A DNA stretch of 47,729 nt from an uncultured bacterium (GTDB taxonomy: Bacteria; Cyanobacteriota; Vampirovibrionia; Gastranaerophilales; Gastranaerophilaceae): assembly GCA_903868125.1 (NCBI GenBank), contig CAIPUE010000024.1, positions 1-47,729 on the forward strand, read 5' to 3'. Under the pieces are notes generated by a model that saw only the letters and a program-made list of their open reading frames with translations, searched no databases and was not told the origin of the DNA. This document shows positions 12,740-31,892 of the stretch, one piece after another. The translations under genes were made by a program, and so were the position numbers. How positions within the stretch are numbered: position 1 is the stretch's first letter; every line of letters begins with the position of its first letter.

Positions 12740-12786
12740 ATAATTATAGTATTCGGTTGTCAATTTGTTGTTTAGTTTTATTGTCT

Positions 12787-12917
12787 AGGTGCTCCGACTG
12801 GCGGACTCTTTCAAGACTCATCCTCAAAAAAAGATATTTAATCTTTTTTCTTCGGTCTTCTTGCTTTCAGGCTTACTCGGGCACCTACCCATAATTATAG
12901 TATTCAGTTGTCAATTT
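12787..12917 (-). other. tRNA-Tyr 5'-end foldback element (upstream copy)
   Basis: Bases 12875-12917 repeat 12724-12766 with one mismatch in 43: the tRNA-Tyr leader plus its first 16 nt. The copy then leaves the tRNA sequence for a hairpin-rich insert (e.g. AAAAAGAT/ATCTTTTT). It ends at 12788-12802 with an inverted, slightly altered D-arm (plus-strand GGTGCTCCGACTGGC against tRNA GGTGCCCGAGTGGC). It cannot fold as a tRNA because the anticodon and T-arms are missing. Confidence 0.7.
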
Positions 12918-13011: not shown

Positions 13012-13036
13012 AAGGCTATGTTATCTTATTTACTTT

Positions 13037-13122
13037 TTAGAACCAAGGGAGTGTTGCTACCCTCCCCCCTCCAAAACCATACTTAATGGTTTTGCGGGTG
13101 CCCTGCTACAGAGGCAAGGCTG
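13037..13122 (-). other. Broken tRNA-Thr copy with hairpin insert in the D-loop
   Basis: Starting at 13115 the minus strand repeats tRNA-Thr (GGT) as GCCTCTGTAGC-AGGG. It is interrupted by about 35 nt containing a perfect CAAAACCAT/ATGGTTTTG hairpin, then resumes as GGGTAGCAACACTCCCTTGGT and stops at the anticodon loop. The leader block CTACAGAGGCAAGGCT is shared with the intact gene. It lacks the 3' half, so it cannot be a functional tRNA. Confidence 0.7.
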
Positions 13123-23973: not shown

Positions 23974-24645
23974 GTGAAGTATATTGAATTTGAGGTTAAT
24001 ACAGGCGAAAAAAACATGCAAATCGACAGTGATTTGCTGGATTTTGCTATAAAAAATAAAATTCAAGAACCGATATTAAGGTTCTATGGCTGGTCTCCTG
24101 CGTGCGTTTCGTTGGGACGAAATCAAAACGATGAATTTTTAGATAAGACATTTTTAAACTCAAAAAACATTGATATTGTAAGGCGTTTAACCGGTGGTAG
24201 AGCTATTCTTCATGATAAAGAACTGACATATTGCTATGTTTGTTCTACTTCAAGCCTAAAAGACGGTGAAAACGTTGTTAAGTCTTACAAAGAAATTTCT
24301 CAATTTCTGATTGACGGGTTTGAGCGGTTGGGTATAAAACTTGAATTCCCCAATAATAAAAAACCTCACACGAAATTTGATTATTGTATGTCAATATCGA
24401 CTGGTGCTGATTTATGTTTTGAGGGGAAAAAATTCATCGGCTCGGCACAGTTTCGCAAGGAGGGCTACATATTGCAACACGGGTCGATACTGATTGATTA
24501 TGATAAGGATTTAATCGAACGGCTTTTCGGCGAAAACGTGGACGAAAGCACGCTGACCTGTTTGAAGCATATCAATCGAGAGCTTGGTTTTTATAGTCTT
24601 TACTTCTTTACTCCACAAATATATTTTCCTGACGGAACAGTGTAA
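23974..24645 (+). CDS. Lipoate-protein ligase A family protein
   Basis: The 223-residue protein is of the biotin/lipoate ligase fold. The N-terminal NTGEKNMQIDSDLL matches the NMAIDEALL block of LplA, RRLTGGRAILHDKELTYCYV contains the RRxxGGGxVxHD signature, and GKKFIGSAQFRKEGYILQHGSIL holds the acyl-binding Lys. GTG 23974 is chosen from alignment of that N-terminus. A TATAAT at 23962-23967 sits just before it with no Shine-Dalgarno. The C-terminus is short and overlaps the convergent gene by 46 bp. Confidence 0.85.
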   Translation: MKYIEFEVNTGEKNMQIDSDLLDFAIKNKIQEPILRFYGWSPACVSLGRNQNDEFLDKTFLNSKNIDIVRRLTGGRAILHDKELTYCYVCSTSSLKDGENVVKSYKEISQFLIDGFERLGIKLEFPNNKKPHTKFDYCMSISTGADLCFEGKKFIGSAQFRKEGYILQHGSILIDYDKDLIERLFGENVDESTLTCLKHINRELGFYSLYFFTPQIYFPDGTV

Positions 24646-26144
24646 TAAGTAACGGGACCCTTGAAAGAAGGAGTTGTAACTTCGCTTATTCCAAAATTAC
24701 TTTTATTTAAATCATGCTTTTGGGCGATGTCAACTAAGCCTTGCACCAAAGTTTGGCAGGCAGAAGGAGTCTCGTGCTGATCATAAGCTAGTCTAAAGAC
24801 CATTACATCATCTTCCTCATCATACCAATTTCTACTTGTATCAAAGCTACTGAAAACGGCACTTGCAACAGCTTGTTTAGTGGTTGCCTCATTAATAGTG
24901 GATATTAATTGATTTGCCCAGTCGTAAATGTGACCTTTATCACTGGAATCCACATGTGGACTACGACCGCTACGATTGTTATATGCCGTATTTGCTTTCG
25001 TTTTTACGTTATCTAACAGCGCAATACAATCATCGATTAACTCCTGTACTGTGTAAACAGGACCAGGAGTAGTAGTGATAGGAGTAGTAGTGATAGGAGT
25101 AGTAGTGATAGGAGTAGTAGTGACAGGAGTAGTATCAGGAGTAGTAGTATCAGGAGTAGTAGTAGCAGGAGTAGTAGTATCAGGAGTAGTAGTATCAGGA
25201 GTAGTAGTATCAGGAGTAGTAGTATCAGGAGTACCAGTACCAGTTATCAGAGTGGTCAGAGAATCACCTACACTATCTACAAAGGTACCAATGACACTAG
25301 TAGTATCAGCAACAACAGGATCAGGAGGAGTGCCAGTTACCAGAGCGGTCAGCGAACTGCCTACGCTAGCTACAGTAGTTGTAACCGCGGTTACAAAAGT
25401 CCCAATGCCACCTCCGCCTCCTGAAGAACCAGTGGTGCTTACAAAATTGTTTAACATTCTTACCAAGGAAGACCCGCTTGTAATATGAGATTGGAACTTA
25501 TTTGTCATGTCTTTTATAAAGCTATATTTTTCATTTTTACTCAATGTACTTCTGCCGCTACTATCTTTGGGAACATCAGAACTACTGATAGCACTGCCTA
25601 ATGTCGTATTAAGAGGCAAGTCTACTGTTGCTGAAACACTTGCACCGCTTGAGTCGACTTTTTTCATAGTAAGAACAGAAGGATCGCTTGGATTAATTAA
25701 ATAAGCATATCCGCCTATTCCGTCTTCATTACAGAATTTATCGGAATCGTTTTTCATATAAACACAGATGTCTCCTCGACCCACGATTGCTTCAATTGCC
25801 AAACTCAAGTATTCTATAGTATTTGCATTGGCGTTCGTGTCGTTAAACGGAGATTCTATTAATGTCAATGCAAGGTTGTTTGCCTTTTTTCTTAATCTTG
25901 CTAATCCTTGCTCACCCATTATCTGCACGTTTATTTGAGAACTGGAATAATCTTTGTTAAAAGCTGAAAATGCTGTTTTTACATCATTGTTTTTGAATAT
26001 ATTACTTAAATTAGTATTAACAATCATGTTTTTCAAATTATTGTTAAACAAGCCCAAGATTACAAATAATACCGCTACAGCCAGTGCTACACCAATTGCC
26101 ACTTCCATGGTAACACCTGCCGAATGTCTTTTTCTATTAATCAT
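24600..26144 (-). CDS. Pilin-like surface protein with TTTP-repeat linker
   Basis: A short basic leader (MINRKRHSAGVTMEV) and one hydrophobic helix (about residues 13-33) resemble class III/TadE or type IV pilin-like anchors. A 200-residue globular part follows, then two similar blocks (GTFVTAVTTTVASVGSSLT and GTFVDSVGDSLT), about 70 residues of repeated TTTP, and a C-terminal domain of about 130 residues. AGGAG lies 8 nt before the ATG. It is probably cell-surface exposed; export and exact class are inferred. Confidence 0.65.
   Translation of the reverse strand: MINRKRHSAGVTMEVAIGVALAVAVLFVILGLFNNNLKNMIVNTNLSNIFKNNDVKTAFSAFNKDYSSSQINVQIMGEQGLARLRKKANNLALTLIESPFNDTNANANTIEYLSLAIEAIVGRGDICVYMKNDSDKFCNEDGIGGYAYLINPSDPSVLTMKKVDSSGASVSATVDLPLNTTLGSAISSSDVPKDSSGRSTLSKNEKYSFIKDMTNKFQSHITSGSSLVRMLNNFVSTTGSSGGGGGIGTFVTAVTTTVASVGSSLTALVTGTPPDPVVADTTSVIGTFVDSVGDSLTTLITGTGTPDTTTPDTTTPDTTTPDTTTPATTTPDTTTPDTTPVTTTPITTTPITTTPITTTPGPVYTVQELIDDCIALLDNVKTKANTAYNNRSGRSPHVDSSDKGHIYDWANQLISTINEATTKQAVASAVFSSFDTSRNWYDEEDDVMVFRLAYDQHETPSACQTLVQGLVDIAQKHDLNKSNFGISEVTTPSFKGPVTYYTVPSGKYICGVKK
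25066..25231. repeat. 15-bp minisatellite coding for the TTTP linker
   Basis: About eleven tandem units of the form GGAGTAGTAGTxxxA (mostly 15 bp, one 12 bp) run through the pilin-like gene. Every unit is a multiple of three, so gain or loss of units changes linker length without breaking the frame. Confidence 0.9.
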
Positions 26145-27910: not shown

Positions 27911-27958
27911 TAGATTTTACTTGATATTTTATTTTGGTTATGTAAGAATAAAAAGGAT

Positions 27959-28050
27959 GGCAAGGTAGCTCACTCGGTGAGACTTGGCGAAACGAAGTCC
28001 AATTAACACCAGCTGAGCCCCAAATGAAAACTTAATATACAAATGATGAT
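27959..28050 (+). other. tRNA-Met 5'-end foldback element, copy 1
   Basis: This 92 bp unit begins with the first 14 nt of tRNA-Met (GGCAAGGTAGCTCA). It diverges into two hairpins (CTCAC/GTGAG and GACTT/AAGTC) and ends with CACCAGCTGAGC (28007-28018), the exact complement of the tRNA-Met D-arm. A leader-like tail follows. It is identical to copy 2 and in phase with the intact tRNA. Confidence 0.8.
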
Positions 28051-28142
28051 GGCAAGGTAGCTCACTCGGTGAGACTTGGCGAAACGAAGTCCAATTAACA
28101 CCAGCTGAGCCCCAAATGAAAACTTAATATACAAATGATGAT
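28051..28142 (+). other. tRNA-Met 5'-end foldback element, copy 2
   Basis: This is an exact second copy of the 92 bp unit. Its tail is the immediate leader of the functional tRNA, and its CACCAGCTGAGC (28099-28110) could pair with the real D-arm at 28152-28163. Confidence 0.8.
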
Positions 28143-28216
28143 GGCAAGGTAGCTCAGCTGGTGAGAGCGCACGGCTCATACCCGTGAGGTCGTCGGTTCG
28201 ATCCCGACTCTTGCTA
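28143..28216 (+). tRNA. tRNA-Met (CAT)
   Basis: The acceptor GGCAAGG pairs with TCTTGCT (G·U at both ends, as in Bacillus elongator tRNA-Met). The D-arm is GCTC/GAGC, the anticodon arm CACGG CTCATAC CCGTG and the T-arm GTCGG/CCGAC. CCA is not encoded and a run of seven T follows. CAU could also be read as lysidine-type Ile, but the body resembles elongator Met. Confidence 0.93.
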
Positions 28217-28386
28217 TTTTTTTGTGTCTATTTATCATGTATTGTATCGGGATTCGAACCAGTATGTTTTTCCCGTAGGTCAAAACATACGCGGTTAATC
28301 GACATGCCGATATCCTGCCTCGTAAGGCTCGTGCCACTCGCCTACGATGCAAGAGATCCCGACTCTTGCTATTTTTTGTGTCTATT
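28217..28386 (+). other. tRNA-Met 3'-end foldback element
   Basis: After the tRNA trailer comes an inverted T-arm (CGGGATTCGAACC, 28248-28260), then a structured insert with TATGTTTT/AAAACATA and GCCT/AGGC hairpins. A second copy of the tRNA 3' end plus trailer follows (28355-28386, matching 28200-28232 apart from one T). The insert read on the minus strand has faint tRNA-like features but no good anticodon arm. Confidence 0.7.
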
Positions 28387-28497
28387 CGATTTTTTCGTGT
28401 GTAAATTGTGGGTAATTTCTCATTTAAACAAAATACCGCCTGTATGAACCAATAACTTCTACAGGTCTATTTTCATGAGACTAAATCTTTAGTATTT

Positions 28498-31815: not shown

Positions 31816-31892
31816 ATTTTTTTGTGCTTATTTATCATGTATTGTATCGGGATTCGAACCAGTATGTTTTTCCCGTAGGTTTGTGTCTATTC
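31816..31892 (+). repeat. Dispersed copy of the tRNA-Met 3' element
   Basis: Bases 31816-31880 match 28216-28280 with two mismatches, covering the tRNA trailer and inverted T-arm. The match then jumps directly to TTGTGTCTATTC, the trailer copy at the far end of the first element, so this is a deletion derivative. No tRNA is next to it. Confidence 0.85.

Follow-up and report, generated by a model that had tools for sequence, protein, structure and literature searches.

Leaders of tRNA precursors are usually viewed as short, disposable tails. Among leader RNAs that recognise a tRNA, the T-box is a regulator of mRNAs that contacts its tRNA in trans, at the anticodon and the acceptor end. Among repeats, the tyrT/rtT repeats of E. 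coli lie downstream of the gene, carry the tRNA 3' end and have no antisense segment, and the REP and Rickettsia palindromic elements are dispersed palindromes without boxA or a complement of a cognate D-arm (anti-D). The leaders of rrn operons carry boxB and boxA; the latter is the element that recruits NusB-S10, and a proposed further role is to help RNA fold in rRNA operons (PMC10250234). In addition, boxA regulates non-rRNA genes, suhB and others, in a survey that did not extend to non-coding RNAs (PMC5725501), and partial tRNA copies are known to arise by partial duplication on integration of large mobile elements (PMC9897764).

We analysed a window of 47,729 nt (the whole stretch of DNA, from an uncultured member of the Gastranaerophilales, whose gut-dwelling family is related to cyanobacteria) in which two tandem units precede tRNA-Met. 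As with the T-box, a leader RNA would recognise a specific tRNA via base pairing and alternative folds; unlike the T-box, the unit leader belongs to the precursor of the same tRNA whose D-arm it targets, Rfam gave no match besides tRNA, and the downstream gene is the tRNA itself and not an mRNA. The units resemble the tyrT/rtT repeats as tandem repeats bearing a fragment of the neighbouring tRNA, but they lie upstream, carry a 5' copy and include an antisense segment. Some of their cores (types B and C, below) resemble dispersed palindromic repeats such as REP and the Rickettsia elements, to which the units add a cognate anti-D and boxA. With rRNA operon leaders (boxB-boxA, Nus/rrnTAC antitermination; PMC10250234) they share a structured leader, a boxA before a stable RNA and an interplay of leader and mature RNA, but they serve single tRNA genes, and their hairpin takes its sequence from the cognate tRNA and is antisense to it. 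Non-rRNA boxA leaders (suhB and others; PMC5725501) likewise place boxA beyond rRNA, but without antisense. Tandem units of about 90-150 nt, made of 5'-end copies with an anti-D, also differ from the tRNA fragments of integrative elements (PMC9897764), which are likewise partial copies beside an intact tRNA; the units are contiguous with tRNA-Met, and no integrase was found nearby. Among the defining features of the closest ideas, T-boxes and rRNA leaders, the unit leaders have the boxA-like motif only.

Two identical units before tRNA-Met

The tRNA-Met (CAT) gene lies on the forward strand at 28143-28216 according to Rfam (28142-28217 according to ARAGORN). It is abutted by two units of 92 bp each, at 27959-28050 and 28051-28142 on the same strand, which are letter-for-letter identical, as the sequence-only reading had claimed; TRF gave a period of 92 bp, 98% matches and 2.3 copies. 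The coordinates place the units exactly in register with the tRNA. Each opens with nt 1-14 (GGCAAGGTAGCTCA) of the gene that starts at 28143 (copies at 27959-27972 and 28051-28064), which bears out the earlier claim of a tRNA start that breaks off at nucleotide 14. This copy is followed by a core hairpin (CGGTGAGRCTNGRCGAAACGAAGTY; 27973-28006 and 28065-28098) of what we call type A, which is common to tRNA-Ala units of this genome and the congeneric G001 and to tRNA-Gly units of G101 and G143. The anti-D, CACCAGCTGAGC, occupies 28007-28018 in unit 1 and 28099-28110 in unit 2; in both, as had been noted, all 12 nt are reverse-complementary to positions 28152-28163 of the D-arm. In the tail of each unit is a boxA-like motif (TGAAAACTTAATA; 28025-28037 and 28117-28129) resembling the rRNA-leader motifs TTGACAACAGAATA and CTTTGAAAATTGAATA. 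The window holds the inverted repeat ACCARCTGAGC-N25..55-GCTCAGYTGGT once, and none of 100 dinucleotide shuffles held it.

A promoter-like site, TTGATA-17-AAGAAT, is located at 27921-27949 on the forward strand, and the same promoter stands before the unit of G001. It is a consensus match only and a weak one (9 of 12 consensus positions; shuffles of the region average 1.3 such matches). RNA from this predicted promoter would begin a few nucleotides before unit 1, and both units and the tRNA would then share one transcript, in agreement with the sequence-only reading. That reading had proposed a comparison of copy number, and G001 was found to carry one unit at the tRNA-Met site (94% identity) against the two seen here. 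Because G001 has a single unit, copy number varies and the exact duplicate at tRNA-Met appears recent. The earlier suggestion of recent expansion or selection is thus supported in part, expansion by the single unit of G001 and selection by the conservation of the anti-D described below. The six neighbouring proteins tested with Pfam comprised a lipoate ligase, a polyprenyl synthetase, a signal peptidase S26, a Kelch protein, a TPR protein and one protein with no hit; none was a transposase or integrase.

Several minor observations concern the same region. Downstream of the gene (28218-28390), about 130 bp away, there is a copy of the 3' end of tRNA-Met plus tail (GATCCCGACTCTTGCTATTTTTTGTGTCTATT). 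On the minus strand, the intervening stretch of about 130 bp looks like the remains of a tRNA whose variable arm was long, and a 65-bp part is present again at 31816-31880 (97%). The acceptor stem of tRNA-Met ends in G1.U72, a feature common to its relatives, and the genome has further CAT tRNAs, an initiator-like one and a third (loci L064 and L054). Elsewhere in the window, at 25064-25233 inside an ORF of the minus strand (24600-26144), a 15-bp repeat gives TTTPD repeats in a pilin-like protein with no Pfam hit.

Cognate units in the genome and in other bacteria

The sequence-only reading had treated the feature as a local oddity, and this part did not stand. Two further units were found in the window by the flank survey, both on the minus strand and with weaker complementarity: one at 13013-13116 before tRNA-Thr(GGT) (score 10.7) and one at 12740-12890 before tRNA-Tyr, with the boxA-like sequence TGACAACCGAATA (score 9.5). 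We extracted the flanks of all 33 tRNAs in the 60 contigs of the genome (G000) and counted a tRNA as unit-bearing when it had a strong upstream anti-D or a 5' copy. By this count 18 of the 33 tRNAs had an upstream unit, each matched to its own tRNA, so that confinement to tRNA-Met is ruled out, with units at about half of the genome's tRNAs; in related genomes the counts were 13 of 29 (G001), 14 of 25 (G080) and 16 of 29 (G051). Examples are Phe (three), Lys-CTT (three), Leu-TAA (two), Leu-GAG (two), Arg-CCG, Trp, Pro, Ala, Lys-TTT and Leu-CAA. A unit-bearing tRNA has one to three tandem units of about 90-150 nt each; since several arrays end contigs, the unit numbers for this genome are lower bounds (the arrays L054, L056, L061, L064 and L414 sit at contig ends). 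In general, a unit repeats tRNA nt 1 to 11-18 and then has a core hairpin, often a remnant of the 3' half of the D-arm, an anti-D of 12-19 nt that sometimes covers the entire D-arm, usually a boxA-like motif, and a short spacer. In the Lys-CTT array the core types alternate C-B-C.

The complementarity is specific to the cognate tRNA, as expected of a cis-antisense leader. In a hand count over G000, G001 and G080, complementarity to the tRNA's own D-arm reached 12.5 or more upstream of 39 of 89 tRNAs, compared to 4 downstream and 1 for the reversed sequence, and upstream complementarity with other tRNAs of the same genome was rare. The predicted leader-tRNA interaction was -11.1 kcal/mol for cognate and -1.9 kcal/mol for swapped partners (Mann-Whitney p 2e-25), and shuffling the anti-D alone changed it to -4.1 kcal/mol, with 28 of 510 shuffles reaching wild type. 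Examples include the anti-D of Arg-CCT (GTTCTATCCATCTGAA against TTCAGATGGATAGAAC), the 19-nt anti-D of Leu-TAA (GCGTCTATCGAATCCGCCA) and that of Phe (CACCAACTGAGCTAA), which outreaches its in-unit partner, TTAGC only. Orthologous tRNA-Gly genes with differing D-loops have anti-Ds that match accordingly, AGCCATTGAGTTAC in G101 and G143 and CCAATTGAGTTAC in G080 and G051. Comparison of sequences establishes the anatomy, cognate specificity, recurrence and conservation of the units.

A scan of 84,980 species genomes, in which the inverted repeat alone was queried and the 5' copy was outside the query, returned 89 stretches, of which 80 loci were listed. Among these 80, the right arm was a tRNA D-arm in 75, and 70 of the 75 also carried the tRNA 5' copy; with a 5' copy in 70 of the 80 loci listed, divergent tRNA pairs are ruled out as the source of the matches. 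A phage origin was likewise rejected, the sole match in a viral contig being coding sequence. The loci listed are mostly from Gastranaerophilales, and the others come from Saccharibacteria (Lys, Met), Cytophagales (Thr), Bacteriovoracaceae UBA2394, one alphaproteobacterial MAG and one deltaproteobacterial MAG, the last with cognate units at Met, Asp (two in tandem), Val and Arg. Among 386 genomes of the phylum, 24 matched, all in the order of the window, and the reversed control gave 0. These counts are lower bounds because the pattern sees only D-arms of the GCTCAGYTGGT type. Rfam at the gathering threshold returned nothing but tRNA for leaders in the window and at eight related loci, and at a relaxed threshold it gave no relevant match for the units; it holds no family of tRNA leaders with self-antisense units, and the open-access literature that we searched contained no description of such leaders.

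The boxA-like motif and the predicted folding of the precursors

The motif TGAMAAYTNAATA is located between the anti-D and the tRNA or next unit. Of 61 unit leaders, 51 have it at a distance of 1-40 nt upstream of the tRNA, against 7 of 55 leaders without a unit (Fisher p 6e-15). It is probably a boxA, because similar sequences sit in rRNA leaders and ITS: the rRNA leader of G034 has the same motif (CTTTGAAAATTGAATA), and the 16S leader (TTGACAACAGAATA) and ITS (TTGAAAATTACATA) of this genome have looser versions, so that it is like the boxA of the organism's own rRNA operon. Over the 817 kb of the genome the motif occurs 15 times, with 15-28 expected under a first-order Markov model; since there is no genome-wide excess, only its association with unit leaders is informative. 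It was not seen in the units outside Gastranaerophilales.

When the leader was folded alone, the anti-D was 71% paired inside its own unit, so that the in-unit helix and the D-arm helix compete. With the tRNA attached, the fold in which the anti-D pairs with the D-arm won over independent folding for 50 of the 51 leaders, with a median pairing probability of 0.97. These are nearest-neighbour energies, which leave out the stabilisation of the native fold by tertiary contacts in the tRNA, by modifications and by proteins. For prefixes of the tRNA-Met transcript, the second anti-D was predicted to stay paired within its unit until nt 28156 and, from the synthesis of nt 28164 on, to pair with the D-arm (P ~0.87). 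This pairing had P ~0.78 when the whole transcript was folded, and the first anti-D took most of the remainder; together the two occupied essentially the whole D-arm, and native acceptor pairing was ~0. The two helices are thus predicted to be mutually exclusive, the anti-D pairing in its unit first and then, as transcription proceeds, on the D-arm. As far as predicted folding goes, the idea that a unit could pair with its tRNA in one transcript was borne out, a block of tRNA folding in the cell being its putative consequence. Co-folding of the 280-nt precursor, which the sequence-only reading had also suggested, gave a divided answer: the pairing of anti-D and D-arm is predicted, but overall stability was only modestly above that of 100 shuffles, five of which did as well (z = -1.87), and for this reason our case rests on comparative evidence and not on raw stability.

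The 5' copy was predicted to capture the 3' acceptor strand in 42 of 42 cases, and still at 0.86 with the anti-D shuffled. Because this capture persists independently of the anti-D, we treated it as a model artefact and dropped the idea of an 'impostor' tRNA fold formed with the captured 3' acceptor.

Conservation, gain and competing explanations

Identity between congeneric pairs was 97.7% / 91.7% in the anti-D, 86% / 78% in the cores and 84% / 72% in the spacers. At 16 congeneric loci, which were chosen for an anti-D in both species and hence partly selected on it, the anti-D was 95% identical against 85% for same-length windows in the same leaders, a value that 0 of 20,000 resamplings reached. 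In the Trp units of G051 and G080 the anti-D is kept at 16 of 16 positions and the hairpin is compensated (GCAAACC-GTCG-GGTTTGC and GTGGACC-GTCG-GGTCCGC, respectively). In the Phe units of many species, an anti-D of 14-15 nt is kept although its in-unit partner spans only ~5-6 nt; the hairpin stems are paired in 45 of 55 cells, with double-sided change at 4 of 5 positions, and 4 of 5000 shuffles reached this pairing. The tRNA-Gly units of one genus have a conserved three-way junction, for which RNAalifold shows a single double-sided change. A test for wobble enrichment over 524 interior positions gave 17 G.U pairs against 16 mismatches; the G.U share exceeds the 0.20 expected from uniform change, lies within the 0.59 expected from transitions alone, and is only suggestive.

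The gene for tRNA-Trp follows rpmG in most surveyed genomes, usually without a unit. Clear Trp units were seen in only five genomes of three lineages (G000/G001, G055 and G051/G080), and the gains were placed in g1, g49 and g53. This patchy distribution implies that units were gained repeatedly and, with most Trp sites empty, that the system is dispensable; judged by their sequences, units look to be maintained once gained. In Met, Ala and Gly the insert is flanked by direct repeats of ~19-30 bp (leader plus tRNA 5' end), which differ among the three, so that site-specific integration with one common core is ruled out. In some units, such as L148 (GCTCAGTTGGTGGCGGCTACGCCTACCAACTGAGC), there is little besides a fold-back of the tRNA start. 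Within the 817 kb of this genome, type B/C-like cores have three dispersed palindromic copies away from tRNAs, and the cores of types A and D that were found all lay at tRNA units. The data fit an origin in which fold-back template switching or insertion of a palindrome gave rise to the units and selection then acted on pairing; they do not fit well with purely neutral units. An intron, in which excision of one 92-nt unit would restore the tRNA, was also considered and set aside, with Rfam giving no intron match and the endonuclease context absent.

Dispersed palindromes outside tRNA settings in this genome (L432 at about 150-310, L431 and L421) have GAYTAARTRTC as their loop and either AAGGACTCC..GGAGG or ACTCTGCCGA..GAGAGG as their arms, and they are of the same family as the type B and C cores. 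The type C palindrome (L006/L030) was also seen downstream of tRNA-Met, beside a 3' tRNA copy, in G004, and in some Phe regions (L095, L121 and L154) the inverted repeat around it comes from the acceptor strand (GCGTCTC..GAGACGC) and not from the D-arm.

We propose, with a probability of about 0.48, that the units form an antisense leader of the pre-tRNA which acts in cis, is specific to its tRNA and serves as a gate to the folding or maturation of that tRNA. The anti-D would pair inside its own unit first and, once the real D-arm is transcribed, could switch to the longer uninterrupted helix, so that the tRNA cannot form its D-arm. Such a switch may gate or time the folding of the tRNA and its maturation by RNase P: precursors that are promptly folded and cut would yield tRNA, and the remainder would be trapped. 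A boxA between the anti-D and the tRNA would recruit NusB-S10, bias this choice and couple tRNA output to ribosome synthesis, and tandem units would raise the antisense dose, with fast turnover through duplication. In its broadest form the proposal is tentative and has the odds against it: the units might be cis-antisense riboregulators of an undescribed, tRNA-specific class that arose or spread in several phyla. Each pre-tRNA leader would capture the D-arm of its own tRNA and thereby set, gene by gene, the share of precursor that matures, occupancy of boxA by NusB-S10 being the likely input in Gastranaerophilales. Structured, gene-specific antisense leaders are borne by about half of the tRNA genes of one bacterium and recur in unrelated lineages; if functional, they would be a missing layer of RNA-only control of tRNA supply, with concrete predictions for RNase P processing and Nus factors.

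The main rival is a selfish or mutational origin, which we consider unlikely: the D-loop of a tRNA copy receives a small palindromic element or is a site of template switching, and the outcome is a fold-back inverted D-arm and a long duplication that takes in the leader and the 5' end of the tRNA, with an intact tRNA downstream; the resulting units spread and duplicate in tandem by slippage without a function for the host. The mostly unit-free tRNA-Trp sites behind rpmG are the empty sites expected of a mobile repeat, and the direct repeats around the insert, the near-pure fold-backs such as L148, the dispersed palindromes of type B and C and the C-B-C alternation at Lys-CTT all agree with this origin. 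Against it stand anti-D complementarity that is kept while cores and spacers change, hairpin compensation, the boxA association and type A and D cores that were found only at tRNA units in the 817 kb, and the six neighbouring proteins tested include no transposase or integrase. If correct, it would describe an element of a new kind, one that with each insertion makes an inverted copy fitted to its target, and either this or the functional reading would explain a conspicuous repeat that RNA family libraries miss.

The frequency of the boxA-like motif in unit leaders, its presence in the rRNA leader of G034 and, more loosely, in the 16S leader and ITS of this genome, together with the boxB and boxA of rrn leaders (PMC10250234), would suit a Nus-type antitermination or processing leader, a boxB-like hairpin followed by boxA, in which the anti-D is a stem built from nearby tRNA sequence and tRNA pairing is incidental. 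We regard this as rather improbable, since a mere stem need not match the cognate tRNA, since the anti-D spans D-arm positions missing from the unit's own copy (Phe, Trp and Arg-CCT), and since units outside Gastranaerophilales have no such motif. Action in trans is less probable still; here cleaved units would be small antisense RNAs that bind the nascent or unfolded cognate tRNA, or sponges, and each precursor would indeed free one to three anti-D-bearing RNAs with compact hairpin cores, but the units always sit directly upstream, in cis, a folded tRNA is a poor antisense target, and free-standing copies were not found. The arrays at contig ends make copy numbers uncertain and might suggest an artefact of assembly in metagenome binning; as the source of the feature itself this is already refuted and of negligible probability, since the copies are not all identical and the architecture recurs in many independent assemblies, including a non-MAG record, Algoriphagus sp. 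A40.

That genome (L278-L307) also has a second kind of tandem partial tRNA, before Ala-GGC (three), Asp (two), Lys (two) and Pro. These copies lack an anti-D, retain the D-arm and carry a hairpin of the CCCGAT..ATCGGG type in place of the anticodon arm.
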